In this document: in pieces, positions 23,700-37,444 of the stretch
Numbering within the stretch: the first letter of the stretch is position 1
How the letters are laid out: every line of letters starts with the position of its first letter
From: Caldimonas mangrovi
GTDB taxonomy: Bacteria; Pseudomonadota; Gammaproteobacteria; Burkholderiales; Burkholderiaceae_C
Length of the DNA: 64,000 bases
Assembly (NCBI RefSeq): GCF_023721835.1
Contig: NZ_JAMKFE010000002.1
Span: forward strand, 186,001 to 250,000
Reading direction: 5' to 3'
Position numbers and translations under genes: made by a program
Notes under the pieces: model-generated
The model's database searches: none
Told to the model about the DNA's origin: nothing
What the model saw: the letters and a program-made list of their open reading frames with translations, nothing else

Positions 23700-23712
23700 C
23701 GCGCAGCGCCGG

Positions 23713-24741
23713 TCAGAACAACTCGACCTCGCCGACTGCGCTTTCCTGCTCGCAGGCGTGTCCCTGCGTCACCAGGTCGGCATGGCTGCAGACGCGGTTG
23801 CGGCCGGTCTGCTTGGCGTGGTAGACGGCCTTGTCGGCCCGGCCGAAAGCCGTGCTGGGGGTGTCGCCCGGCAGCACCTGCGCGAAGCCGATGCTGACCG
23901 TCACCCTGCCGACCTGCGGGAACGGATGATGGGCCATGCGCTCGCGCACGCGCTCGAGCGCGCGGCTGGCGTCGGCCTCGCTGTCGCAGCGCAGCAGCAC
24001 GACGAACTCTTCGCCGCCGAAGCGGTAGAGCCGGTCGTGGTGACGGAACATTTCACGCAGCATGCGCGCGACGAGCAGCAGCACCTCGTCGCCGATCAGG
24101 TGGCCGAAGCGGTCGTTGACCGATTTGAAGTGGTCGATGTCGAACACCGCGATCCAGCACCCGGTGGCGCCCGGCGCCGCCGATGCCGTGCCCGGCAGGG
24201 CATGCGCCGTCTTGAAGAAGGCATCGTCGAAGGTCTTGCGGTTCAACAGGCCGGTCAGCGTGTCGCGCTCGCTTTCGTCGAGCACGTTCCAGAAGTTCTG
24301 GAACACGCGCAGGATGCTGGCGACCGTCTGCATCTCGTGCGGCTCCAGGGGGCGGTGCGACTGAATCTCAAGCACGGCGACCGGCCCGCCGGTCGAACCC
24401 AGGGGGAACAGCGTCATGTCCAGTCCGACGCCGCTCGATGCGGCGTCAAAGCTCCGCACGGTTGCGGTTTCCAGGCATGTCTGATGTGCGGGCAGCGCGT
24501 GCAGCGGCGACAACTCGTCGTCAAGGGTGGCTCGTTCGGCCGGCCGGCCGAACGTTACCAACCGGCCCAGCCGCGCGCTGACCGACCATCGGCTCGACGT
24601 TTGGTGCAGGCCGACGACGCGGTGAATCGCGATCGCCGTCGGTTGCAGCAGCTCCGCCAGTGAGTGGACGAGCGCGCTATCCAGCGCGTCCAGGTCTCGG
24701 TGGATCGTCAATGCGGCAAGCGATTCGACAGGATCGGACAT
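23713..24741 (-). CDS. Diguanylate cyclase (GAF-like sensor plus GGEEF)
   Basis: 342 residues, no signal or membrane segment. The N-terminal half looks like a degenerate GAF sensor (LFPLGSTGGPVAVLEIQSH). The C-terminal GGDEF domain begins at DTLTGLLNRKTFDDAF and has an intact GGEEF site (residues 242-246). Five residues before it lies RHHD, an allosteric inhibition site (RxxD), so the enzyme should make c-di-GMP and be product-inhibited. It is convergent with the WS/DGAT gene and divergent from the signalling operon at 25088-35855, to which it may contribute. Confidence 0.92.
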   Translation of the reverse strand: MSDPVESLAALTIHRDLDALDSALVHSLAELLQPTAIAIHRVVGLHQTSSRWSVSARLGRLVTFGRPAERATLDDELSPLHALPAHQTCLETATVRSFDAASSGVGLDMTLFPLGSTGGPVAVLEIQSHRPLEPHEMQTVASILRVFQNFWNVLDESERDTLTGLLNRKTFDDAFFKTAHALPGTASAAPGATGCWIAVFDIDHFKSVNDRFGHLIGDEVLLLVARMLREMFRHHDRLYRFGGEEFVVLLRCDSEADASRALERVRERMAHHPFPQVGRVTVSIGFAQVLPGDTPSTAFGRADKAVYHAKQTGRNRVCSHADLVTQGHACEQESAVGEVELF

Positions 24742-25087
24742 ACCGTGTGGAGTCGGCGGACGCCAAGGGAGCGTCCGAGCAGGGCCACTGCCAGGATTGA
24801 CAGATGCGCAGGATATCGGCGTGCACGATGCCTGCTTTAGATCCGCGGCGTGCGAACGTCACATGTTCCCCCTGAAATGAGGGGCGAGCAGTTGGAGCGA
24901 GAAATACTGCACAGCGGGCTGGCGGCGTGAGAGTGCCTTGCGGTCAAGGATCTCTCCCGACTGCCGAAGATGTTCACGAGTCTCTTGAAAGCTGGCTGGC
25001 GACGCTGTGGCCCCCGGGCAAGGTTTGCGCGTGGGCGGAAGAGTGTATGAGGCAGCGGGTGCCAGCCAAGAACCAGAACGGCCGAGT
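24742..25087. other. Control region between the diguanylate cyclase gene and the signalling operon
   Basis: 346 bases without a convincing gene. The one clear structure is a small hairpin, CCCCT-N6-AGGGG, at 24869-24884. The frame of the following gene stays open back to a GTG at 25007, but that extension has no family resemblance. Promoters for both directions should lie here; none could be identified with confidence. Confidence 0.4.
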
Positions 25088-26428
25088 ATGGACACCACTA
25101 CAGATGCCGGGCCGCCACCGCCGCGCGCTCAGGCCTTGCTCATCGTCGACGACGAGCCCCACGTGTTGAGCGCGCTGCGGCGCGCCTTGCGCGGCACCGG
25201 CTGCACCATACATACCGCGCCGGGCGGACAGCAGGCGTTGCAGATCCTCGCTGAGCATCCGATCGACCTGATCATCTCGGACATGCGCATGCCCGGCATG
25301 TCCGGCGCTGAACTGCTGCGCGGCGCACGGGAGCGTGCGCCCGAGACCATCCGCATCCTCCTGACCGGCTACGCCGACCTGCGCTCGACGATGGAGGCGG
25401 TCAACGACGGCGAGATCTTCCGCTTCCTGACCAAGCCCTGGGAGGACCCGATCCTGCTGGAGGCGGTGCAGGAAGGGCTGCAACGCCGCGTCCTGGAACA
25501 GGAACGCGACGAGCTTCGTGCGCTGACCCAACAGCAGAACGCGGAACTGAAGCGCCTGAACGGCGGGCTGGAGCAGCTGGTCGCCGAACGCACAGGCGAG
25601 CTGCAAAGAACGCTGGGCGATCTGGAAGCGGCCACCGATCGGCTGAAATCCGACTTCACCAGCACCGTGAAGCTGCTGTCCAGTCTGGTGGCGTCGCGCT
25701 CCGGCATCGCGGCCGGCTGCCCGCGCGCGGTGGCGCGCTACGTGCGCGAAGTGGCGCCGGAGCTAGGCATCGCCGGCGAGCAGATCGCCGACCTGACCTT
25801 TGCCGCGCTGCTGCAGGATGTGGGCAAGCTGGGCCTGCCGGACGAATTGCTGCGGGTACCGTTCGCCGCGCTCAACCGCGACCAGCGTGCACGCCTGCGC
25901 CGCCACCCGGTGGCCGGCGAAGCATGCCTGATGGCGCTGCCGTCGCTGGCGCCGGCCGGTGCAATCCTGCGTCACCTGTACGAGAACTTCGACGGTAGCG
26001 GCAAACCCGACAGCCTGGCCGGCGATGCGATTCCGCTCGCGTCGCGTCTGTTGCGGGTGCTCACTGACTATGAGCACTACCGCAGCGGCGCGATCGAACT
26101 GGCGCAACTGCCCGAGGAACACGCCTTCCAGCGCCTGCGCCAAGGCCGCGCCGGCGTTTACGACCCGCGCTGCGTGGATGCCTTTCTGAAGAGCCGGCGT
26201 CAGGCGGTGGCCGTGCCGCGCCAGAGCAAGCTGCTGTCGAGCGACCGGCTGGAGCCGGGCATGGAAGTCGGGCAGGACCTGATGTCGAAAGCCGGGACGC
26301 TGCTGTTGTCGCAAGGGCACGTGCTCGATGCCGCACTGATCCGGCAGATCCAGCGTTACGAACACTTCTCCGGCGAATTTCTATGGATCAAGGTGCTGAC
26401 CGACGCGGTGGCACCGGCCGCATCCTGA
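25088..26428 (+). CDS. Response regulator with degenerate HD-GYP domain
   Basis: 446 residues. A REC domain (residues about 16-135; phosphoacceptor D65 in IISDMRMPGMSG; ends in IFRFLTKPWED as in RpfG-type regulators) is followed by a coiled coil (about 140-195) and an HD-GYP-like domain. The catalytic motifs are altered: the HD pair reads QD (Q243-D244, in LLQDVGKLG), and the GYP motif reads GKP (305-307, in NFDGSGKPDSLAG). The fold is recognisable but c-di-GMP hydrolysis is doubtful. First gene of a six-gene run, 9 bases before a kinase gene. ATG 25088 is chosen because the REC domain starts soon after it; a GTG at 25007 is possible. Confidence 0.85.
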   Translation: MDTTTDAGPPPPRAQALLIVDDEPHVLSALRRALRGTGCTIHTAPGGQQALQILAEHPIDLIISDMRMPGMSGAELLRGARERAPETIRILLTGYADLRSTMEAVNDGEIFRFLTKPWEDPILLEAVQEGLQRRVLEQERDELRALTQQQNAELKRLNGGLEQLVAERTGELQRTLGDLEAATDRLKSDFTSTVKLLSSLVASRSGIAAGCPRAVARYVREVAPELGIAGEQIADLTFAALLQDVGKLGLPDELLRVPFAALNRDQRARLRRHPVAGEACLMALPSLAPAGAILRHLYENFDGSGKPDSLAGDAIPLASRLLRVLTDYEHYRSGAIELAQLPEEHAFQRLRQGRAGVYDPRCVDAFLKSRRQAVAVPRQSKLLSSDRLEPGMEVGQDLMSKAGTLLLSQGHVLDAALIRQIQRYEHFSGEFLWIKVLTDAVAPAAS

Positions 26429-26437
26429 CACTCACCC

Positions 26438-27331
26438 ATGAACTACACCTCGAACATCGACCCCATCGCGCTGCAGGGCGAAGACCGCGAAGAGCTGCTG
26501 GGACGGCTGCAGCAGGCGCAGCGCCAACTTCTGCAGTCCGAGAAGATGGCGGCGATCGGCCAGCTTGCCGCCGGCGTCGCCCACGAGATCAACAACCCGA
26601 TGGGCTACGTGTTCTCCAACATCAACTCGCTGGCGACCTACGTCAACGATCTGCTGCGGCTGATCCGTGCCTACGAAGCCAGTGGGCACGAGTCGAGCGA
26701 AGTGACTGCGCTCAAGCGCGAGATCGATGTCGAGTTTCTAGCCGAGGACATCGTCTCGCTGATCGCCGAGTCGCAGGACGGCATAGACCGTGTCAAGCAG
26801 ATCATTCGTTCGCTGAAGGATCTGTCGCGCATCGAGGAGGCCGACGACTTCCAGCCCGCCGACCTGCACCAGTGCATCGAGAGCACGCTCAACGTGGTCA
26901 ACAACGAGATCAAGTACAAGGCCACTGTTGAGCGCCGCTTCGCCGAGATTCCGCTGGTCGAATGCCTGCCCACACAGATCGGCCAGGTGCTGATGAACCT
27001 GTTCGTCAATGCGGCGCACGCCATCTCAGAGCAGGGTGTCATCGAGATCTGCACCGCAGCAGTGAACGATGGTGTGCTGATCGAGGTGAAGGACAACGGC
27101 GCAGGCATCTCGCCGGACTTCAAGGACCGCATCTTCGAGCCCTTCTTCACGACCAAGCCGGTCGGCAAGGGGACCGGGCTGGGCCTGTCGATTTCGTACA
27201 ACATCGTCAAGAACCACGGCGGGTGGATCAAGGCCGACAGCGAACTGGGCCGGGGCACCTGCTTCAGCGTCTGGCTGCCTGCACGCCGCAGCGGCACGGT
27301 CGATCGCGGGGCGGCGCAGGCCGCGACCTGA
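26438..27331 (+). CDS. Soluble sensor histidine kinase without a sensor domain
   Basis: 297 residues. A short coiled coil (residues 10-40) leads straight into a HisKA domain with the phosphoacceptor H49 in GVAHEINNP. The ATPase part has the N box (LMNLFVNAAHAI), G1 (DNGAGI), F box (IFEPFFTTKP) and G2 (GTGLGLS). It lacks a transmembrane region and any PAS or GAF input, so its signal likely comes from a partner protein, perhaps the adjacent REC/HD-GYP protein. The segment QSEKMAAIGQLAAGVAHEIN is almost the same in the GAF kinase at 34518, suggesting paralogues. Confidence 0.92.
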   Translation: MNYTSNIDPIALQGEDREELLGRLQQAQRQLLQSEKMAAIGQLAAGVAHEINNPMGYVFSNINSLATYVNDLLRLIRAYEASGHESSEVTALKREIDVEFLAEDIVSLIAESQDGIDRVKQIIRSLKDLSRIEEADDFQPADLHQCIESTLNVVNNEIKYKATVERRFAEIPLVECLPTQIGQVLMNLFVNAAHAISEQGVIEICTAAVNDGVLIEVKDNGAGISPDFKDRIFEPFFTTKPVGKGTGLGLSISYNIVKNHGGWIKADSELGRGTCFSVWLPARRSGTVDRGAAQAAT

Positions 27332-27356
27332 ACGGCATGCCGGGGGACCGAGCGCG

Positions 27357-30300
27357 ATGAAACCGCCCGGCGTAATGCGCAGCCTACGCTTGTCCGCGCC
27401 CGCGCTCCACCACGTGGTGAAGCTGTGGGTGCTGTGTTGCCTTGCGCTGGCCGGCATGCTGCTCGGACACGCCTTGCTGGGCAGCCTCCCCGCCGACTTT
27501 GCCGGCGGTCTCGTGCTGGGCACGGTCTGTTCGCAAGTCGGCGTGGTGCTCGCCTGTATGGGCCTGCTGGGCCGAAGCGCAGGGCGCCAAGGCGTGTCCC
27601 GGGCGGCGGGTGTGCTGCTCGCGCTCTTCTGCGTGGTGTGGGCTGTGAGCGCGAACGACGGTGTTCCATCCTGGTATGCCAGCCCGATGCCGGCGTTGGC
27701 GCTGCTCGCGGCTGCACTGGTTTCGCCTGCGGCGAAAGGCCGCTTCCGGCTCGCGTCGGGCTGGGCATGGGCTGCGCTGCTTCTGGCGTCGATCGCGAGC
27801 GCCGATGCGCTGGTCACCCGGCCGGACAACTGGTCGCTGCTCGACAGCCGACTCGTCGTTGCGACGCTGGCGCTATGTGCCGTTTGGACGTACGGCGGCC
27901 CTGCGGGGCGTGCTGATCACCCGCTCGACCCTGCAGCAGCAGCGCTGGCGATCGTCGGCAGCGCGCTGGTGCTGTTGAACGGCGGCCTGCTGATTTCGTT
28001 CGCGGCGGCGCTCGCGCTGCAATTGTCACAGGACGCTAGACGCCGAGAGCGCGAGCTGGTCGCCAAGGAACGGCGCAGCGAGGAGGCGCGGCAGCATCTT
28101 GAAGAAGTGCAGCGCCAGATGCTGGCGGCCGTCGAATCGATGAGCGAAGGCTTTCTGCTGCTCGGTGCACGTGGGCGCATCCTGTTCGTCAATGCGCAGG
28201 CAGCCGAGCTGACGGGGCGGGAAGCGCAGGCGTTGATCGGGCGGGCCGCGTCGCGATGCTTCACGCGGCCATCTTGCCCCGAGGTGCATGCGCTGTGCGT
28301 GCAGGCGCTGCGAACCGGACAAGCCTCGGAATGCGAATTCGTTATCCCGGGCACCGGGCGGTGGCTGCATCTGCGCCTGCACCCGCGCGGCGACACGGTG
28401 GCCGTGTGCGTCAGCGACATCACAGACCGGCGGGTGGCCGAACAGGGCCTGCGCTCTGCGCTGGAAGAGAACCGCCTGATGCTCGACAACTCGCTGGATG
28501 CCATCTGCATCCTCGACAGTGCGGGGCGCTTCGTGCGCGCCAACCCCGCAGTGCGCACGATGTGGGGCCATGCCGCCGATGAGCTCGTGGGCGTCTCCTA
28601 TCTCGATCTCGTCGCGCCCGAAGACGTGCTGAAGACGATGATGGCGATGAGCGAGGTGATGGCAGGTCACCCGACGCGCGACTTCGAGAACCGCATTCTT
28701 GCGAAGGACGGCCGCGTGGTCAGCACCATGTGGTCGGCGTACTGGTCGGCGACATTGAACAAGGTGTTCTGCGTCGCGCGCGACCTCAGCTCGCGCCGCA
28801 TGAAGGATCAGCTGGCTGCCGACCAGCACCGGATCCTGTCGCGTGTCGCCGCCGGCATGTCGCTGCACAACGTGCTCGACGAGGTGGTTCAGATGCTCGA
28901 GGCGCAGGTGCCCGGCATGCGGGGCGCGATCGGCGTGCGGGACCGGCGCGATGGCGGCTTCGCGATGTTGGCTGCGCCACGGCTGGCTCCCGAGTTCGCC
29001 CGCTCGGTCATGACGGCGGCGGCCGATGGCCACGGCGCCATCTGGGCGCAGGCGATGGACGCCAAGGCGCCTGTCTTTACCGAGGACATGCGGCAGGACC
29101 CGCTGTGGAGTTCCCGGCAGGGCTTGGTCGACACGACCGATCTGCGTGCGTGCTGGTGTGCCCCGGTCATGGGGCAGGACGACGAGGCGCTGGGCGCGCT
29201 GATGCTGTGGCATCCGCAGCCGCGCTGCCCGGACGTGCAGCAGACCGATCTGGTGGCGATCGGAGCGCAGCTTGCCGGCGTGGCGATTCAGCATTGGGCG
29301 CACAAGCAAGCGCTCAGCGAGAGCGAGCAGCGCTTTCGCTCGCTGTTCGAGCACAACCCCGCAGCGGTGTTCGCTCTCGACATTGCCGGCGGTATCGTCG
29401 AGATGAACGGAAGCAGTTCCGCGCTGCTCGGCTACAGCCGCGATAAATTGATCGGTGCCCCGTTCGGCATGGTGGTGCCTGGCTGGACGCGCGATGCCAA
29501 GGCAGAAAGCACGCCGATCGATGCGCGACCGGCCTCCAGCGCGCGCGAGGTGCTGGCCTGTCACAGCAGCGGGGCGGTGCGCGAGCTGTCGGTTACGGTG
29601 GTACCGACCTTCGTGGGAGAGCGTGTGGTGGGCTACTACGCGGTTGCCTACGACGTGACCGGCGCGAAGCAGAACCTGCGGCGGCTGCGGTTGCATGCGC
29701 AGGTGATCGCCGGAACGCACGACGCGATCGCCCTGCTCGATCTCAACGGCCGGGTTGTCGACTGGAACAAGGGTGCCAGCCGCCTGTTTGGCGTGGCGCC
29801 CGAGCGCGCGGTCGGCCGCTCGCTGTGCGCGGGGGTCAGCCGTGACGACCGTCGCCTGCTGGCGGCGACGATCCACGACGTCGCGCGAGACCACGCGCAG
29901 GGCCGCGAAATCGAGCTGACGACGGTGGCACCCGATCGCGCGCTGCGCCATGTGGTGCTGACGCTGTCCTATCTCGGTGAGCTCGACGACGTCGATCCTC
30001 TGATCGTGGTGTACGGTCTGGACATCACGCAGCGCAAGGCAGCCGAGAACGCGATCCGCGAAAGCGATGCGTTCTTCCGCCTGTCGAGTGAGATGTTCTG
30101 CACCGCCGATCGCGATGGCCGCTTGCGCCAGGTCAACCAGGCGTTCATCGCGACGCTCGGACACGACGAACGGACGCTGCTGTCGTCCCCGTTCCATGAT
30201 TTCGTCCATCCGGACGACTTCGACGCCACGGCGAGTGCGTTCGACGGCCTGCGCCGGGAAGGCACGTTGCGCGCCTTCGCGAATCGGCTGCGCCACCGAG

Positions 30301-31205
30301 ACGGAGGCTACCGCTGGATCGAGTGGGCCGGCAGCACCGATGCGAGCGGCACCGTGTACGCCGTGGCGCGCGACGTGACCGAGCGGCGCGCCGCCGAAGC
30401 CGCATTCCAGCGCCTGCTGCTGGACCTGAAGAGCACCAACCGCGAGCTGGAGGACTTCGCCTTTGTCGCATCGCACGACTTGCAGGAGCCTCTGCGCAAG
30501 GTGCTGGCCTTCTCCGACCGCCTTCGTGTGCGACACCGTGAGGCGTTGACCGGTGACGGCCTCGACTATCTCGATCGACTCGACAATGCCGCGCGCAGGA
30601 TGCAGCGCCTGATCACCGACCTGCTTGCCTACTCGCGCGTGTCGACGCGGCAGCGCAGCTTCGAACGCATCGACCTCGCCCGCGTGGTGCAGGCGGTGCT
30701 GTCGGACCTCGAAAGCGGCATCGAGCGCAGCGGCGCCCGCATTGACGTCGGTGCGCTGGGCGAGCTCGACGGCGATGCCGGCCAGCTGGAACATCTGTTG
30801 CTGAACCTGCTCAGCAATGCGATCAAGTTCACCCGCACTGGTGAGCCGCCGATCATCCGCGTGTACTGCCGGCGTCTGCTCACTGCGCCACCAGGCGGCG
30901 TGCAGGCGGTGCCGCATCTCGCGCTGCACGTCGAGGACGAGGGCATCGGCTTCGAGCAGCAGTATGCCGAGCGCATTTTCATGCCGTTCCAGCGGCTGCA
31001 CGGCCGCGACCGCTACGAGGGCACCGGCATCGGCCTCGCGATCGTGCGCAAGATTGCGGAACGCCACCGGGCGCAGCTCGAAGTGACGTCGGCGCCAGGG
31101 CAGGGCACGCGCTTCGTGTTGACCTTCCCGGTGGCGCAGCCGGCCGACACCGCGCTGCCGGCTCCTGCGACAGAGCGTGGCGTGCTCGCGCTGCCGACGC
31201 CATGA
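27357..31205 (+). CDS. Membrane multi-PAS/GAF histidine kinase
   Basis: 1282 residues. The N-terminal 225 residues are hydrophobic with roughly six to seven membrane segments, then a coiled coil and, in order, PAS (about 255-360), PAS (370-490), GAF (500-650), PAS (665-780), PAS (785-905) and PAS/PAC (910-1025). The kinase core is of the Cph1-like class: H1040 in ASHDLQEPLRK, N box LLNLLSNAIKF, EDEGIGF and GTGIGLAIV. No chromophore or LOV motif is visible. Its stop overlaps the next ATG by four bases; that gene encodes an Rcp1-like regulator, the usual partner of SHDLQEPLR kinases. Ligands unknown. Confidence 0.92.
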   Translation: MKPPGVMRSLRLSAPALHHVVKLWVLCCLALAGMLLGHALLGSLPADFAGGLVLGTVCSQVGVVLACMGLLGRSAGRQGVSRAAGVLLALFCVVWAVSANDGVPSWYASPMPALALLAAALVSPAAKGRFRLASGWAWAALLLASIASADALVTRPDNWSLLDSRLVVATLALCAVWTYGGPAGRADHPLDPAAAALAIVGSALVLLNGGLLISFAAALALQLSQDARRRERELVAKERRSEEARQHLEEVQRQMLAAVESMSEGFLLLGARGRILFVNAQAAELTGREAQALIGRAASRCFTRPSCPEVHALCVQALRTGQASECEFVIPGTGRWLHLRLHPRGDTVAVCVSDITDRRVAEQGLRSALEENRLMLDNSLDAICILDSAGRFVRANPAVRTMWGHAADELVGVSYLDLVAPEDVLKTMMAMSEVMAGHPTRDFENRILAKDGRVVSTMWSAYWSATLNKVFCVARDLSSRRMKDQLAADQHRILSRVAAGMSLHNVLDEVVQMLEAQVPGMRGAIGVRDRRDGGFAMLAAPRLAPEFARSVMTAAADGHGAIWAQAMDAKAPVFTEDMRQDPLWSSRQGLVDTTDLRACWCAPVMGQDDEALGALMLWHPQPRCPDVQQTDLVAIGAQLAGVAIQHWAHKQALSESEQRFRSLFEHNPAAVFALDIAGGIVEMNGSSSALLGYSRDKLIGAPFGMVVPGWTRDAKAESTPIDARPASSAREVLACHSSGAVRELSVTVVPTFVGERVVGYYAVAYDVTGAKQNLRRLRLHAQVIAGTHDAIALLDLNGRVVDWNKGASRLFGVAPERAVGRSLCAGVSRDDRRLLAATIHDVARDHAQGREIELTTVAPDRALRHVVLTLSYLGELDDVDPLIVVYGLDITQRKAAENAIRESDAFFRLSSEMFCTADRDGRLRQVNQAFIATLGHDERTLLSSPFHDFVHPDDFDATASAFDGLRREGTLRAFANRLRHRDGGYRWIEWAGSTDASGTVYAVARDVTERRAAEAAFQRLLLDLKSTNRELEDFAFVASHDLQEPLRKVLAFSDRLRVRHREALTGDGLDYLDRLDNAARRMQRLITDLLAYSRVSTRQRSFERIDLARVVQAVLSDLESGIERSGARIDVGALGELDGDAGQLEHLLLNLLSNAIKFTRTGEPPIIRVYCRRLLTAPPGGVQAVPHLALHVEDEGIGFEQQYAERIFMPFQRLHGRDRYEGTGIGLAIVRKIAERHRAQLEVTSAPGQGTRFVLTFPVAQPADTALPAPATERGVLALPTP

Positions 31206-31648
31206 TCATCGCCCGACGCCGCCCGCTGGTGCTGATCGCCGACGACGACGCGGACGACCGCGACATGATGCGCGAGGCCTTCACCGATGCGTTCGTCCCC
31301 TGCGCACTCGACTTCGTCGAGGACGGTGAGGTGCTGATGGCCTACCTGGACGGCTGCCGCCGCACCGAACGATCGCCCATGCCGGACCTGCTGGTGCTCG
31401 ACCTCAACATGCCGTTGCTCGATGGCCGTGCCGCGTTGCAGCGCATCCGGACCGATCTGCTGCTGCGCAACCTGCCCGTGGTGGTCTGCTCGACCTCTTC
31501 GTCGGAGGCCGACCGGGTCGGTGCGTACCGGGACGGCGCCAACGCGTTCTTCACCAAGCCCGTCACGCTGCTGGAGTTCGATCGACTCGTGCGCCATTTG
31601 GCCGAGCGCTGGCTCGGCTTGTACATGCCTGAAAGTTCCATGCCATGA
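31202..31648 (+). CDS. Rcp1-like single-domain response regulator
   Basis: 148 residues forming one REC domain: acidic pocket IADDDADDRDMMREAF, phosphoacceptor D67 in LLVLDLNMPLLDG, and conserved Lys in FFTKPVTLLEF. The long loop between the first helix and strand (LDGCRRTERSPMPD) is typical of Rcp1-type regulators that pair with Cph1-like kinases. It overlaps both neighbours by four bases (upstream kinase, downstream LOV protein), so it is coupled to both and the 1282-residue kinase is its likely donor. Confidence 0.93.
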   Translation: MIIARRRPLVLIADDDADDRDMMREAFTDAFVPCALDFVEDGEVLMAYLDGCRRTERSPMPDLLVLDLNMPLLDGRAALQRIRTDLLLRNLPVVVCSTSSSEADRVGAYRDGANAFFTKPVTLLEFDRLVRHLAERWLGLYMPESSMP

Positions 31649-34482
31649 CCCTGCCCATCGACGTGCTCGTCATCGAAGACGACAGCGAGGACTACCTGCT
31701 GTTCAAGGATATGGTCGACGAACTGCGGCCCCGAAGCTACCGCCTCAGCCGCGCCGAGAGCTTCGAGGAGGGCCTCGAGCGCATGCGCATGGGAGGCTTC
31801 GGTCTCTACGTGGTTGACTACTACCTCGGTGCGGGGACCGCGCAGGACTTCCTGGCAGCCGCCACCGCGAGCGGCGTGCGCCAGCCGATCGTCGTGCTGA
31901 CCGGCCGCAGCGACGATGCGATCGACGCACAGATGGTCGCTGCCGGTGCGGCCGACTACCTCGTCAAGGGCGAGCTGAGCGCCGACACCATCGCGCGCAG
32001 CTTCCGGCACGCGCTCGCGCGCCATCAGATGCTTGACGCACTGTTGACGGCACAGCGCCAGGTGGCGCGGCGGGAGCGCACCCTGTGGACGGTGCTCGAG
32101 GACACGATCGATGCGCTGATCGTGCTCGATGCTGGCGCGCGCCCGGTGTATGAGAACGGCCAAGCCAAGCGGCTGCGACAGTTGGCGCCGCTGGATTGGC
32201 CGGTACTCGTCGCCGAACTGCTGACGGGCCATTCGCAACCCGCTGAACGCGAACTGCGCACGCTGCACGGCGGAGCGCGCGCACTCGAGCTGCGCTCATC
32301 GCCGACCGAGTGGGATGGCATGCCGGCGACCATGGTGATGATTCGCGACGTCACCGCACGAAAGGCGGCCGAGCGGGGGCTGCATATCAGCCATCGCGTG
32401 ATCGAGTCGAGCGTCAACGGCATCGTGATCACCGATGCCTCCAGCGAGGACATGCCGATCACCTACGCGAACGCTGCGTTCGAGCGGATGACCGGCTACT
32501 CGCGCGACGAGGTGATCGGTCGCAACTGCCGGTTCCTGCAGGGCGAAGAGCACGACCAGGCCGGCATCGGCCAATTGCGGGATGCGCTGCGCGCACGGCG
32601 CGAGACCGTCGTGGTGTTGCGCAACTACCGCAAGGACGGCACGCCCTTCTACAACGAGATTCACATCGGGCTGGTGCGCGACCCCGACGGCGAAGTCACT
32701 CATTTCGTCGGCGTTCAGCTCGACGTGACCGAGCGCATGCGCTACCAGGCCGAGGCGGCGTTCCGGGCGACGCACGACCCGCTGACCGGTTTGCCCAACC
32801 GCGTGCTGCTGCAGGACCGGCTGAAGCAGGCACTGGCGCTCTCGCGGCGGCATGCGGCGGTGATCGCCGTGCTGTTCATCGACCTCGACCACTTCAAGAC
32901 CGTCAACGATTCGCTCGGACACGAGGCGGGTGACCGCGTGCTGCAGGAAACCGCCCGCCGCGTCTCCGCCAGCCTGCGCGAAGGCGATACCGTCTGCCGC
33001 AGCGGCGGCGACGAATTCATCGTGATGCTGCCTGACCTGACGCAGGAGTCCGACGCTGTCAGTGTCGCCAGCCGCATCCTCAATGCGGTCGACGAGCCAT
33101 TCGAGCACGAGGGCCGGCCGCTGTTCCTCGGCTGCAGCATCGGCGTGACGATCGCGCCGCGGGAAGTCGTCGAGCCATCGCTGCTGCTGCAGCAGGCCGA
33201 CATCGCGATGCATTCCGCCAAGAAGGCCGGCCGCAACGGGTACTGTCTCTATAGCGACGATCTCGATCGCTCCGCAAGCGAGCGGCTGGACTTGCGCAAT
33301 CGCCTGCGTCAGGCAATTGCCGGCAACGAGTTCGAGTTGCATTTCCAGCCGCAGTTCGAGATCGGCAGCGGGCGCATGTGCGGCGTCGAGGCGCTGCTGC
33401 GTTGGAACGATCCGCAACTGGGGCAGATCGGGCCTTCGCATTTTGTGCCGTTGGCCGAGGACACCGGCCAGATCGTACAGATCGGCACCTGGGTGATACA
33501 CGAGGCGTGCCGGCACGCAGCAGGCTGGGTCGCGCGAGGCCTGATCGACTGTCCGATTGCCGTGAACATCTCCGGTGTGCAGTTCCAGCGGCAGAACTTC
33601 GCGGAGCTGGTCGCGGCTGCATTGGATCAGTCCGGCCTGAAGCCGCAGTTGCTGGAGCTGGAGTTGACCGAATCGGTGATGATGGCGCCCAGCGGGCGCG
33701 CCGGCGAGACCATCCGGAGGTTGCGTCAACTCGGCGTGCGGCTGTCGATCGACGATTTCGGCACCGGGTTTTCCAGCCTCAGCTACTTGAAGAGGCTGCC
33801 GGTCGACAAGGTCAAGATTGATCGTTCGTTCATCAGCGACATCACGCACGACAGCGGCGATTCGTCCATCGTGCTGAGCATCATCGCGATTGCGCATCAC
33901 CTGAAGCTGCGGGTGATCGCCGAGGGAGTCGAGAGCGAAGCGCAGCTGAGCTACCTGCGCCGGCAGTTGTGTGACGAGGCCCAGGGCTACCACTTGAGCC
34001 GTCCGCTGCCCGCCGACGAGTTCGAGCGTTTCCTCAGCACACCGCGCAGTCCCGCGGTGCAATCGCTGTGCACGCCGGCCGAAGGCGAGTGCCGCACGTT
34101 GCTGCTGGTCGACGACGAGGCCAACGTCCTGCGAGCCCTGAGTCGCGCATTGCGGCGCGACGGCTACCGGCTTCTGACGGCATCGGGCGCCGAAGAGGCC
34201 TTCGACGTGCTGGCGCGCAACGACGTGCAGGTGATCGTCTCCGACCAGCGCATGCCGGGCATGACGGGGACTCAGTTCCTGGGGCAGGTGAAGGATCTGT
34301 ACCCGCACACGGTGCGCATGATCCTCAGCGGCTACACCGACCTGCAGACCGTGACGGATGCGATCAACCGCGGCGCGATCTACCGCTTCCTGACCAAGCC
34401 GTGGGAGGACGAGGCACTGCGTGCCCATGTGCGCGAGGCTTTCCTGCATGGCGAGCGCCACCGTCAGGGAGCCTCGGTCTGA
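31645..34482 (+). CDS. REC-PAS-LOV-GGDEF-EAL-REC light/c-di-GMP protein
   Basis: 945 residues, no membrane segment. The order is: REC (D58 in VVDYYLG), PAS (about 135-250), a LOV-type PAS (about 255-370), GGDEF (SGGDEF, 453-458), EAL (E582-A583-L584) and a second REC (D867 in VSDQRMPGMTG). The LOV call rests on GRNCRFLQGEEHD with the adduct cysteine at 295, NYRKDGTPFYN, and GVQLDVT, which hold the flavin contacts known from phototropin-type LOV domains. The GGDEF has a REGD inhibition site; the EAL keeps ELTES, DDFGTGFSSLSYLK and AEGVE. So blue-light control of both making and breaking c-di-GMP is predicted. The C-terminal REC resembles that of the operon's first gene. Confidence 0.9.
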   Translation: MTLPIDVLVIEDDSEDYLLFKDMVDELRPRSYRLSRAESFEEGLERMRMGGFGLYVVDYYLGAGTAQDFLAAATASGVRQPIVVLTGRSDDAIDAQMVAAGAADYLVKGELSADTIARSFRHALARHQMLDALLTAQRQVARRERTLWTVLEDTIDALIVLDAGARPVYENGQAKRLRQLAPLDWPVLVAELLTGHSQPAERELRTLHGGARALELRSSPTEWDGMPATMVMIRDVTARKAAERGLHISHRVIESSVNGIVITDASSEDMPITYANAAFERMTGYSRDEVIGRNCRFLQGEEHDQAGIGQLRDALRARRETVVVLRNYRKDGTPFYNEIHIGLVRDPDGEVTHFVGVQLDVTERMRYQAEAAFRATHDPLTGLPNRVLLQDRLKQALALSRRHAAVIAVLFIDLDHFKTVNDSLGHEAGDRVLQETARRVSASLREGDTVCRSGGDEFIVMLPDLTQESDAVSVASRILNAVDEPFEHEGRPLFLGCSIGVTIAPREVVEPSLLLQQADIAMHSAKKAGRNGYCLYSDDLDRSASERLDLRNRLRQAIAGNEFELHFQPQFEIGSGRMCGVEALLRWNDPQLGQIGPSHFVPLAEDTGQIVQIGTWVIHEACRHAAGWVARGLIDCPIAVNISGVQFQRQNFAELVAAALDQSGLKPQLLELELTESVMMAPSGRAGETIRRLRQLGVRLSIDDFGTGFSSLSYLKRLPVDKVKIDRSFISDITHDSGDSSIVLSIIAIAHHLKLRVIAEGVESEAQLSYLRRQLCDEAQGYHLSRPLPADEFERFLSTPRSPAVQSLCTPAEGECRTLLLVDDEANVLRALSRALRRDGYRLLTASGAEEAFDVLARNDVQVIVSDQRMPGMTGTQFLGQVKDLYPHTVRMILSGYTDLQTVTDAINRGAIYRFLTKPWEDEALRAHVREAFLHGERHRQGASV

Positions 34483-34517
34483 CCGTGCGTCACCTGAGCG
34501 AATAAAAGGGGAAAACG

Positions 34518-35855
34518 ATGAGCGACAAACTGTCCAAGCTCTCGTGGCTGGAAGAGTTGTACGCGCTGAGCCGGACGGCGGCGGCCGCCACCGACCTCGA
34601 TGAAGCGCTGGTAGCGATGCTCAAGCACATTGCAGAGGGGTTTGCGGCAGGCAGCGGCACGCTGGCGCTGATGGTCGATGCAGAGCAAGTGCTGGAGATC
34701 GTGGCCGGCACCGATCTGCCGGCCGACGCGATCGGGCAGAAGGTGCAGATCGGGCGCGGCGTGCTCGGCGGAGTGGCGCTGGAGGGCAAGCCGGTGCTGA
34801 TCAATGGCCAGCTGGACATCTCGAAGACCTCTCGCCCGGCGGCGGTCAGCAAGCGCAAGATCCCGACCTCGTCGATGTGTTGGCCGTTGCATGTCAAAGG
34901 CAAACTGATCGGCGTGATGTCGATGAACCGCTTCGAGGTGCACGCGCCGTTCGAGGAGCGGGACCTGCAGCGCGGCTCCATCATGGTCAACATGCTGGCG
35001 CTGGTGATCGAGAACCTGCGCATGCACATCGACCAGCAGCACCGCATCGAGCGCCTCTCGCAGCTCAATCGGGAGCTCGAGGAAACCAACCGCCGGCTCG
35101 CACAAACCCAGGCGCAACTGGTTCAGTCCGAAAAGATGGCGTCGATCGGCCAGCTTGCAGCCGGCGTCGCGCACGAGATCAACAACCCAATCGGCTACGT
35201 CGCGGCCAACGTCCGCGCACTCGAGAGCTACGCGAAGGAGCTGCTGCAGAGACTGCGCGACGCGGGGCCGCTCGATGGGAGCCTACGCGATATCGAGGAG
35301 GATCTGCCGGGCCTGGCCGGGGAAACGCGCGAAGGCCTGGAGCGCGTGCGCTCGATCGTGCAGAACCTGCGCGACTTCTCCAGCGTCGATGTGCAGGAAC
35401 AGTGGGAGCAGGTCGACCTCAATGCGTGGGTGCGTAGCGCGATCGAGCTGGCGCAACCGGAGCTGTCGGCCAGGGCAGAGCTGCAGTGCACGCTGACGCC
35501 GCTGCCTCCGGTGAGCGGTCTGCCGGCGCAGTTGCAGCAGGTGTTTCGCCACCTGCTGGTCAATGCGGCGCAGGCGCTGCGGGAACGAGGCCACGTGGCG
35601 GTGACGACCGGGCGCGAAGACCAGCGCGTATGGGTCGAAGTCCGTGACGACGGCGAAGGCATGCCGCCCGAAGTGCTGCGCCGCATCTTCGAGCCATTCT
35701 TCACGACACGCCCGGTCGGCAGCGGCACCGGCCTCGGTCTGTCGCTCGCCTATTCGATCGTGCAGAAGCACCAGGGCACGATCGATGTGCACAGCGAGGC
35801 AGGCAAGGGCAGCCGGTTCCGGGTATGGTTGCCCATGCACCGGTGCGCGGCCTGA
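34518..35855 (+). CDS. GAF-domain sensor histidine kinase
   Basis: 445 residues, cytosolic. A GAF domain covers about residues 25-175 (VQIGRGVLGGVALEGKPVLI, SSMCWPLHVKGKLIGVMSM), then a coiled coil, a HisKA domain (H219 in GVAHEINNP), and an ATPase domain (N box RHLLVNAAQAL, DDGEGM, IFEPFFTTRP, GTGLGLS). It should be the input kinase for one of the operon's REC domains. The kinase core is close to that at 26438. Last gene of the run; the next gene is convergent. Confidence 0.92.
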   Translation: MSDKLSKLSWLEELYALSRTAAAATDLDEALVAMLKHIAEGFAAGSGTLALMVDAEQVLEIVAGTDLPADAIGQKVQIGRGVLGGVALEGKPVLINGQLDISKTSRPAAVSKRKIPTSSMCWPLHVKGKLIGVMSMNRFEVHAPFEERDLQRGSIMVNMLALVIENLRMHIDQQHRIERLSQLNRELEETNRRLAQTQAQLVQSEKMASIGQLAAGVAHEINNPIGYVAANVRALESYAKELLQRLRDAGPLDGSLRDIEEDLPGLAGETREGLERVRSIVQNLRDFSSVDVQEQWEQVDLNAWVRSAIELAQPELSARAELQCTLTPLPPVSGLPAQLQQVFRHLLVNAAQALRERGHVAVTTGREDQRVWVEVRDDGEGMPPEVLRRIFEPFFTTRPVGSGTGLGLSLAYSIVQKHQGTIDVHSEAGKGSRFRVWLPMHRCAA

Positions 35856-35864
35856 GCCTTCTTG

Positions 35865-36356
35865 TCAGCGCTGCGGCTTGCGGGGCACCGGGGCGGCGGC
35901 TTCGCCGGGAGCGTCGAGATCCGTCCAGTCGGTGACGGGTGCGCTCGGCGGCATTTTGGCGCCCGCTGCCGCGGCCTGGGCCACCAGCGGTTCCACGCGG
36001 TCGCGCCTCGCGACGGCCGGGAAGCGTTCCAGGTGATCGAACGGCGTCGACACCTCGCTGCCGATGCGCCAGAAGACATAACCGATGCGCACCTGCAGCT
36101 GCCGCCACAGGGCATCACGGACCCGCTTCTCGATCACCTTGCTGGCGAGCAAGGCCTGCGGCGACCACTGATTGAGCCGCACCAGCACCAGCAGCGCGGG
36201 CACCTTGCCGTCGGTGCCACCGTACGAGCGCAGGCTGATCTCCGCCGCACCGGGCGGCAGGCCTTGCGCCAGCAACACCTGCCGGATGGCCTCGGTGATC
36301 TTCTCCCGGTCCAGGTCCGGCGCCGGCCTGGGGGAGCTCGTATCCTGAGCGGACAT
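35865..36356 (-). CDS. Conserved small protein of unknown function
   Basis: 163 residues from ATG 36356 (another ATG lies at 36365). No family is recognised with confidence. It has a proline-rich N-terminus, a central alpha/beta region (EKITEAIRQVLLAQGLPPGA, ALLVLVRLNQWSPQALLASK, IEKRVRDALWRQLQVRIGYV) and a Pro/Ala-rich C-terminus. No signal peptide or membrane helix is visible. It faces the end of the signalling operon and is divergent from the HypT-like regulator gene. Confidence 0.6.
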   Translation of the reverse strand: MSAQDTSSPRPAPDLDREKITEAIRQVLLAQGLPPGAAEISLRSYGGTDGKVPALLVLVRLNQWSPQALLASKVIEKRVRDALWRQLQVRIGYVFWRIGSEVSTPFDHLERFPAVARRDRVEPLVAQAAAAGAKMPPSAPVTDWTDLDAPGEAAAPVPRKPQR

Positions 36357-36520
36357 GGGACCCATGCTAACGCCCCTGCAGCGCATCCGGCGCACGCCGA
36401 CGTGCGCAACGGGGGATTGTTCTCGCGTGGCGGTCCTGCGACAAGGGCTGTGGCGCTCGTGCGCCACCCCGGCTAAACGCCAGAGCCGCCGGCGTTTCGT
36501 CGTGGTTACACTCCGCCCTC

Positions 36521-37444
36521 GTGGAAACCAAGTGGCTCGAAGATTTCGTCAGCCTGGCCGAGACCCGCAGCTTTTCGCGGTCGGCCCAGCTGCGGCACGT
36601 GACGCAACCGGCTTTCTCGCGCCGCATCCAGGCGCTCGAAGCCTGGGTCGGCATCGATCTGGTCGACCGGTCGTCCTACCCGACGCGGCTGACGCCGGCC
36701 GGAGAGACTTTTCTGGCGCAGGCGCTGGAAATCCTCGGCAACCTGCAGGCCACGCGCAACATGATGCGCGGGCACCGCTCGGCGGCGCAGGACATGATCG
36801 AGTTCGCCGTGCCGCACACGCTGGCCTTCACGTTCTTTCCGCACTGGGTGATGGGGCTGCGCAAGAGTTTCGGCGCCGTCAAGAGCCGGCTCATCGCACT
36901 GAACGTGCACGACGCCGTGATGCGGCTGACCGAAGGCAGCTGCGATCTGCTGATCGCCTACCACCATGCGTCGCAGCCGCTGCAGCTCAACCCGGATCGC
37001 TACGAGATGCTGAGCCTGGGCCAGGAGACGCTGGCGCCGTACGCCAAGGCCGGGCCGGACGGCGAGCCGCTGTTCCGCATTCCAGGCCGCCCGAACGAGC
37101 GCGTTCCTTTCCTGAGCTACGCCTCGGGCGCCTACCTGGGCCGGCTGGTCGACCTGATCATCAAGCGCTCGCCGGCGCCGCTGAACCTCGAGGCGATCTA
37201 CGAGACCGACATGGCCGAGGGCCTGAAGGCGATGGCGCTCGAGGGGCACGGCGTGGCCTTCCTGCCGGCCAGTTCCGTCAAGAAAGAGCTGCGCGCGAAA
37301 CGCCTGGTGCTGGCGGCGCCCTCCGGGCCGTACGAAGTGACGATGGACGTGCGCATCTACCGCGAGCGGCCCGAAGTGGCCAAGCACGTGCGCCACGGCG
37401 TGCAGGCGCTGTGGGACTACCTGCGCGAGACGCGGGGCGCCTGA
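36521..37444 (+). CDS. LysR-family regulator, HypT/YjiE-like
   Basis: 307 residues from a GTG start. N-terminal winged helix-turn-helix: ETKWLEDFVSLAETRSFSRS and TQPAFSRRIQALEAWVGI; then a LysR effector domain. Segments ETKWL.DF, QPAFSRRI.ALE and SYASGAYLGRLVDLIIKR parallel E. coli HypT, the methionine-oxidation-activated regulator of hypochlorite stress. That role is inferred from similarity only. There is almost no leader, and no clear ribosome site before the GTG; TACACT at 36507-36512 could be a -10, which would make the message nearly leaderless. Confidence 0.85.
   Translation: METKWLEDFVSLAETRSFSRSAQLRHVTQPAFSRRIQALEAWVGIDLVDRSSYPTRLTPAGETFLAQALEILGNLQATRNMMRGHRSAAQDMIEFAVPHTLAFTFFPHWVMGLRKSFGAVKSRLIALNVHDAVMRLTEGSCDLLIAYHHASQPLQLNPDRYEMLSLGQETLAPYAKAGPDGEPLFRIPGRPNERVPFLSYASGAYLGRLVDLIIKRSPAPLNLEAIYETDMAEGLKAMALEGHGVAFLPASSVKKELRAKRLVLAAPSGPYEVTMDVRIYRERPEVAKHVRHGVQALWDYLRETRGA

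Follow-up and report, generated by a model that had tools for sequence, protein, structure and literature searches.

The window analysed here is 64,000 nt of Caldimonas mangrovi (Genome Taxonomy Database lineage Bacteria; Pseudomonadota; Gammaproteobacteria; Burkholderiales; Burkholderiaceae_C), positions 186,001-250,000 on the forward strand of contig NZ_JAMKFE010000002.1 in assembly GCF_023721835.1, and its gene at 31645-34482, the target of this study, encodes a protein with the domain order REC-PAS-LOV-GGDEF-EAL-REC. Judged from its sequence, the protein is rather likely to be a blue-light-controlled enzyme of cyclic diguanylate (c-di-GMP) that also takes two phosphorelay inputs. The parts are all known; their combination had no match among the relatives sampled, and the context of the neighbouring kinase and HD-GYP genes is new.

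The domain order stands because of the Pfam matches and the order of strands and helices in an AlphaFold2 model. Pfam found EAL at residues 551-787 (E 2.8e-73), GGDEF at 375-531 (E 2.5e-49), PAS_9 at 258-363 and two Response_reg stretches, the best of them at 820-930. The model, made with an alignment of 42 rows of chosen relatives, had a mean predicted local distance difference test (pLDDT) of 79.1 and a predicted template modelling score (pTM) of 0.52, and was good from the LOV domain to the C-terminal receiver, except in the linker between EAL and receiver; residues 1-154 were modelled poorly. Least certain is the first PAS-like domain (PAS1), which as a segment alone scored 18.5 bits with PAS_4 (E 0.0025) where Pfam requires 23.1 and in the model shows a PAS-like order of strands and helices at modest confidence (pLDDT about 50-75). 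A structure search returned DosP, MorA, PA0575 and other GGDEF-EAL entries, with a LOV-activated cyclase at rank 24. An earlier note made from the sequence alone had given the same coordinates and the same domain order. The gene is indeed there, on the plus strand and with 945 amino acids from an ATG start, and the order is borne out by Pfam, matches in the PDB and the model, with PAS1 as its weakest part. A transfer RNA of unidentified type called by ARAGORN within the coding region (window 32055-32140) was taken as a false match.

The LOV domain of the target is, as far as sequence can tell, canonical, with all of the photochemical residues checked present. The motifs GRNCRFLQG (with the adduct cysteine at residue 295), NYRKDGTPFYN and GVQLDVT read as the earlier note had stated, and structure matches and the model agree with a LOV assignment: the segment alone matched solved structures, the 60 best matches ranging from E 2.9e-33 to 6.1e-28 and including 9vf7 ('histidine kinase'), 6gg9 ('Sensory box protein', presumably PpSB1-LOV) and phototropins, and the model is mostly above pLDDT 90 there. 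Nine positions, which were picked from known LOV structures and which we take to be the flavin pocket, are all canonical (N276, N294, C295, R296, L298, Q299, N327, N337 and Q358). Among 90 rows of GGDEF-EAL proteins read just before GGDEF, with the target included and some loci (numbered L below) present twice, only L306, L308, L309 and L160 (= L265) have all nine besides the target, and the residue at the adduct position is Cys in 12 rows and most commonly Pro (34 rows). LOV was called in these counts by the nine positions and not by LOV-model scores, because the model was built mostly from PAS domains. Counted by the definition of PMC10396304, the linker between LOV and GGDEF, with its 21 residues, puts the target in the short-linker class (this paper and PMC8846402, PMC6707612 and PMC4844311 are cited from excerpts).

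Both c-di-GMP domains are apparently active. In the 42-row alignment D415, N421, D422, D430 and D456 of the GGDEF domain are invariant and G454, G455, E457 and F458 nearly so, and the I-site RxxD (R445-x-x-D448) is found five residues ahead of GGDEF. In the EAL domain the eight residues E582, N641, E673, D703, D704, K724, E760 and Q780 are invariant, corresponding to E, N, E, DD, K, E and Q, which we take to be the EAL catalytic set. The nearest solved GGDEF-EAL structures are 4rnh, 4rnf and 5m3c. The intact GGDEF with RxxD and the EAL with catalytic residues proposed earlier thus both hold.

The receivers proposed at both ends were likewise found, above the Pfam cut-off at each end and with the acidic pair, phosphoacceptor, Thr/Ser and Lys kept when read by eye. 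Alone, the N-terminal receiver passed narrowly (Response_reg 33.1 bits against 30.2), and the C-terminal one scored 172 bits against NCBIfam NosR (NF053512), matching its receiver part and falling short of the 400 set for the whole family. The two gave no BLAST match to each other. The C-terminal receiver is 47% identical to the receiver of gene 25007 in the same operon, and its nearest relatives are receivers of GGDEF-EAL-REC proteins and receiver-only open reading frames (ORFs; 63-71% identical), while the N-terminal receiver is nearest to the N-terminal receivers of REC-kinase proteins (32-37%). The single receiver encoded by gene 31202, directly upstream of the target, is nearest to single receivers adjoining those REC-kinase proteins in L266-L270, so that the N-terminal receiver and gene 31202 have their nearest kin next to each other there. 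These REC-kinase relatives were fetched because their N-terminal receivers matched that of the target, and therefore only the likeness of gene 31202 to the single receivers is unselected.

To compare gene neighbourhoods, GGDEF-EAL genes resembling the target were fetched with their surrounding DNA from genomes of the family and the order (with wide flanks for only 20 places among the order matches), and neighbours within 8 kb were counted for 68 GGDEF-EAL genes in 59 stretches, the window included. An HD-GYP gene was found near 29 of the 38 genes with a C-terminal receiver and 0 of the 30 without, and a histidine kinase of the type here called HK2 near 28 of 38 versus 1 of 30. A kinase of the other type, HK1, was near 10 of the 15 genes with an N-terminal receiver and 3 of the 53 without it, and within the C-terminal-receiver group near 8/13 versus 1/25. 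When reduced to one row per genus and architecture, the counts were 18/23 versus 0/19 for HD-GYP, 17/23 versus 1/19 for HK2 and 7/11 versus 3/31 for HK1. Receivers of each type thus tend to be accompanied by a particular type of kinase, and the target stands between both sets, the HK2 and HD-GYP set and the HK1 set, which strengthens the earlier suggestion of light and two phosphorelays in one chain. Two groups of loci were left out of the 68-gene count, L009-L013 (L011 has the module, L009, L010 and L013 are without it and L012 is a cut contig) and L357-L359. The latter, from congeners, are LOV-less REC-GGDEF-EAL-REC genes flanked on either side by HK1-type kinases, and the fetched stretch showed no HD-GYP gene.

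In the window itself (Table 1), six genes in the same direction run from 25007 to 34518 with gaps of 9, 25, -4, -4 and 35 bases, and gene 31202 overlaps by 4 bases both the stop of the preceding gene and the start of the target. The kinases 34518 and 26438, both HK2, are 43% identical over the kinase part, and 27357 is of the HK1 type. The N-terminus of kinase 27357 has a hydrophobic segment, read by eye as membrane; its first 245 residues (window 27357-28091) had no Pfam match above cut-off and no match among the best 11-15 candidates per genome in 174 other genomes of the family. Gene 25007 looks catalytically dead from its motifs: it carries QD for HD, RHLYENF, and GKP for GYP, departing from the HD-GYP phosphodiesterase motif and unlike nearly all of the relatives aligned with it, the HD histidine being kept in 30 of 32 aligned sequences, the window included.

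Table 1. Features of the target and its surroundings, in window positions
Feature	Position	Strand	Basis
Block: six signalling genes and minus-strand ORF 35865-36467	24746..36493	.	limits from alignment with congener G129
Receiver-HD-GYP protein, NosR family, HD/GYP motifs degenerate (QD, GKP)	25007..26428	+	NF053512 481.9 bits, cut-off 400
Histidine kinase, HK2 type, H49, no sensor domain found	26438..27331	+	profile matches, sequence comparison
Multi-PAS, GAF histidine kinase, HK1 type, SHDLQEP H-box	27357..31205	+	ORF, Pfam
Single receiver protein	31202..31648	+	ORF, Pfam
Target gene, 945 aa, ATG start, REC-PAS-LOV-GGDEF-EAL-REC	31645..34482	+	ORF, Pfam, AlphaFold2 model
N-terminal receiver, residues 1-125, phosphoacceptor D58 with D12, D13, T86, K108	31645..32019	+	Pfam; residues by eye
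First PAS-like domain, about residues 157-235	32113..32349	+	model strand order; Pfam sub-threshold
LOV domain, residues 250-366, adduct C295 (codon 32527-32529)	32392..32742	+	PDB matches, pocket positions, model
LOV-GGDEF linker, 21 residues, Asp of DVT (360) to Leu of DPLT (380)	32722..32784	+	sequence
GGDEF domain, residues 375-531, SGGDEF and I-site R445-x-x-D448	32767..33237	+	Pfam, conserved columns
EAL domain, residues 551-787, catalytic residues present	33295..34005	+	Pfam, invariant columns
C-terminal receiver, residues 817-937, phosphoacceptor D867 with D823, D824, S895, K918	34093..34455	+	Pfam; residues by eye
GAF-histidine kinase, HK2 type, H219	34518..35855	+	Pfam, sequence comparison

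A GGDEF-EAL protein with two receivers is in itself nothing unusual, and the LOV domain inside that layout is the part unmatched in the sample. Proteins of the type REC-(PAS)-GGDEF-EAL-REC without LOV occur with both neighbour sets (L221, L336-L339), with the HK2 and HD-GYP set alone (L219, L222, L340-L342) and with HK1 alone (L220 = L106, L335), and of the 29 order loci L274-L302, 7 have this layout. Such proteins of the order (L336-L342, with one or two PAS domains) and of the family (L107 and L114, with L099 and L106 similar) resemble the target in having receivers at both ends, and L336-L342, L221, L222 and L219 also in their HK2 and HD-GYP neighbours, but among the readable ones, that is L099 and L106 excluded, the PAS lacks the LOV cysteine or pocket. 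At L219 (5762-15997) two GGDEF-EAL-REC genes, one of them with an N-terminal receiver, flank one set of kinase, receiver-HD-GYP and receiver genes.

Other relatives share the LOV domain and differ in their receivers. LOV-GGDEF-EAL-REC proteins with the cysteine kept (GRNCGFLQ or GRSCSFLQ), HK2 and HD-GYP neighbours and no N-terminal receiver found are those of L274/L325, which a contig end cuts, and L328. L326 and L327, the same genes as L275 and L276, are LOV-like-GGDEF-EAL-REC, again with no N-terminal receiver found, and have Gly for the adduct Cys; in L275, L276 and L302 (= L326, L327, L343) the motif before GGDEF-EAL reads GKNGRFLQ and the other eight positions are kept. The gene at L160 1010-3526 (= L265) encodes LOV-GGDEF-EAL-REC with canonical LOV residues and a degenerate GGDEF, and that at L206 2977-6210 (= L262 6977-10210) encodes REC-PAS-LOV-GGDEF-EAL without a C-terminal receiver, with HK1 upstream and with Met at a conserved LOV Gln, which makes it a naturally Gln-less LOV.

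No second protein with LOV and both receivers was met among the relatives sampled. The earlier note had been cautious about novelty, naming LOV-GGDEF-EAL proteins as familiar but not this order with two REC domains. The N-terminal 245 residues of the target had matches in 7 of 249 other family genomes, where 7 of the 8 places end by residue 142 and one at 195, and in 6 of 179 other order genomes, none past residue 166. The missing full-length orthologue is not proof of absence, because the genome searches scored only the best candidates (11-15 per genome for N-terminal queries, 2-3 in other searches). A census of NCRFLQ, a pattern that overlooks motif variants, found 73 places spread over 61 of the 399 genomes of the family, the own genome included; the 72 non-target places (70 loci) yielded 63 ORFs with the motif, and of the 57 that also matched the LOV model 4 carry GGDEF-EAL (L160, L206, L207, L208) and 45 end in kinase-receiver. 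The own genome has a second LOV protein on contig 45 (L163 2343-5951), LOV-PAS-PAS-kinase-receiver. A plasmid search matched 301 records, each below 60% identity. In the literature we found no description of this order of LOV and two receivers, a paper on two receiver domains with GGDEF and EAL concerning a hybrid kinase, but the order may already have been listed elsewhere.

The target was probably assembled from a LOV-GGDEF-EAL core to which two receivers were added. In a tree of 151 LOV/PAS-GGDEF-EAL rows the target groups with L247, L306, L308 and L309 (support 99), and the same group appears in a tree of 46 rows made from GGDEF-EAL only, without the LOV columns (support 98/99). All four are without a C-terminal receiver; neither receiver is seen in the complete ORFs of L306, L308 and L309, and in L247 an ordinary PAS stands where the target has LOV. 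The target could also be an ordinary vertical member of the two-receiver GGDEF-EAL family whose PAS became LOV, which would agree with the frequency of the LOV-less layout in the order, with the similar neighbours in L336-L342 and with the approximately unbiased (AU) test, which does not reject a clade of the target and five proteins from a single family that have both receivers (p 0.066). We regard this as doubtful, as the proteins that group with the core at 98/99 have no C-terminal receiver, the 46-row tree requires 6 changes to explain the two-receiver label, at least 4 of them forced (the rows being hand-picked), and the N-terminal receiver of the target is of a different receiver type. 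Separate assembly of the two-receiver layout of the target is therefore favoured rather than shown, because the trees group the core with proteins without a C-terminal receiver but the AU test leaves the p value of 0.066. A wider LOV grouping is not rejected either (p 0.20).

The surrounding block was either gained in this lineage or has been lost repeatedly, because the six genes are absent from the stretch fetched beside the orthologue of the LysR gene at 36521 in 8/8 congeners; this orthologue is 80-93% identical in all eight other genomes of the genus searched. In congener G129 the distance between the gene corresponding to 23712-24745 and the LysR region is 188 bases, versus 11.75 kb in the window, in three more congeners 45-145 bases separate the left flank from LysR, without the gene at 23712-24745, and in the remaining four the left flank was unmatched in the same order. 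A full-length search with the target in the genus returned only LOV-less relatives, in 3 of 8 genomes. Composition does not mark the block as an island (G+C 0.62-0.71 inside, 0.66-0.71 around).

Among 1390 bacterial LOV proteins, about 18% have GGDEF, alone or together with EAL (PMC4844311). In the target, LOV directly before GGDEF-EAL, the 21-residue linker and the tree placement all fit the LOV-GGDEF-EAL layout. SL2 of Synechococcus elongatus resembles it in having LOV, GGDEF and EAL in one chain with the adduct cysteine, and hydrolyses c-di-GMP in the light state; receiver domains go unmentioned for SL2 in the excerpt, whereas the target has two (PMC8846402). The LOV-GGDEF-EAL pieces of PMC10396304 have the same 21-residue linker, as do the short-linker LOV-activated diguanylate cyclases AoLadC and DpLadC described there, which share the canonical LOV and GGDEF motifs but are LOV-GGDEF proteins without EAL or receivers. 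RavR of Xanthomonas campestris, phosphorylated by the two kinases RavA and RavS, combines GGDEF-EAL with a receiver, which we place at the C-terminus from the wording 'N-terminal GGDEF and EAL' and from Asp496; its GGDEF is degenerate, unlike that of the target, and LOV is unmentioned for it in the excerpt (PMC6707612). The C-terminal receiver of the target, with D823, D824, D867, S895 and K918, corresponds by sequence to this layout.

In the working that we propose, blue light would form the Cys295-flavin adduct in the LOV domain, and the change would pass through the 21-residue linker and shift the c-di-GMP turnover of GGDEF-EAL. Judging by the neighbourhood, the HK2-type kinases 34518 and/or 26438 may serve the C-terminal receiver and the receiver-HD-GYP protein 25007, and the HK1 kinase 27357 and the single receiver 31202 may belong with the N-terminal receiver. 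From its dead-looking motifs, protein 25007 is more likely to modulate than to hydrolyse, as HnoD does for HnoB. HnoD is a degenerate HD-GYP protein, and HnoB, unlike the target, is REC-EAL without LOV or GGDEF. In the HnoK-HnoB-HnoD network of Shewanella, to which the target operon can be likened, a kinase acts on a phosphodiesterase response regulator and HnoD is an inhibitor (PMC8846402). The main light output may be net c-di-GMP hydrolysis by EAL, given the SL2 precedent (PMC8846402) and the discussion in PMC10396304; we hold this with about even confidence, because LOV-GGDEF proteins elsewhere go either way. More tentatively, the target could be a three-input switch made by recruitment, in which LOV-GGDEF-EAL captured two receivers with their own kinase sets. 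Blue light and two independent phosphorelays would then feed a single c-di-GMP output, and relatives blind to light would have come to the same layout by a separate route.

Several points weigh against a light-controlled enzyme with two phosphorelay inputs and the details given to it, besides the AU result. Light raises the activity of short-linker LOV-GGDEF cyclases about 15-fold, and truncated LOV-GGDEF-EAL pieces with this linker had no light-regulated synthesis, EAL being suggested as the controlled part (excerpts of PMC10396304); a Mesorhizobium LOV-GGDEF piece was repressed by light (PMC9098866). RavR phosphodiesterase activity was unchanged by phosphorylation of the C-terminal receiver (PMC6707612). 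The model confidence is low for the N-terminal receiver and PAS1. As to the neighbourhood, L266-L270 were chosen through N-terminal receiver matches, so that this pairing is partly selected, the loci counted are no random sample, having been selected for their similarity to the target, the models for the kinases and HD-GYP came from the window's own genes, an HD-GYP gene was counted with or without a receiver of its own, and adding the eight left-out loci lowers HD-GYP with a C-terminal receiver to 30/46.

The receivers might not control catalysis, the C-terminal one serving as a sink for phosphate or competing for the HK2 kinases, with light alone controlling c-di-GMP: RavR takes phosphate from two kinases and its receiver acts as a sink (PMC6707612), and the target operon has two HK2 kinases for one enzyme with a C-terminal receiver. 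We find this possible but unlikely, since the repeated pairing of receiver and kinase set across lineages fits regulation at least as well, and the GGDEF is degenerate in RavR, not in the target. Still less probable is that light is not the main signal and that activity is set by the kinases, the LOV flavin being a constitutive or redox cofactor or the domain serving chiefly for dimerisation: relatives of similar layout carry an ordinary PAS or the GKNGRFLQ form with Gly for Cys, and the Cys-less LOV-like PAS of RmcA is tied to both light and phenazine effects (PMC8846402), but the target keeps the Cys and all nine pocket positions, as do L306, L308 and L309 of its four nearest core kin, L247 having an ordinary PAS.

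If the light-controlled enzyme with two phosphorelay inputs works as proposed, light and two-kinase gating of c-di-GMP would be measurable separately and together in one protein, and a natural light enzyme with phospho-tuning may be of interest for optogenetics. In addition, the neighbourhood counts offer a testable wiring rule for GGDEF-EAL proteins with receivers, in which the C-terminal receiver would go with the HK2 and HD-GYP set and the N-terminal receiver with the other kinase type.

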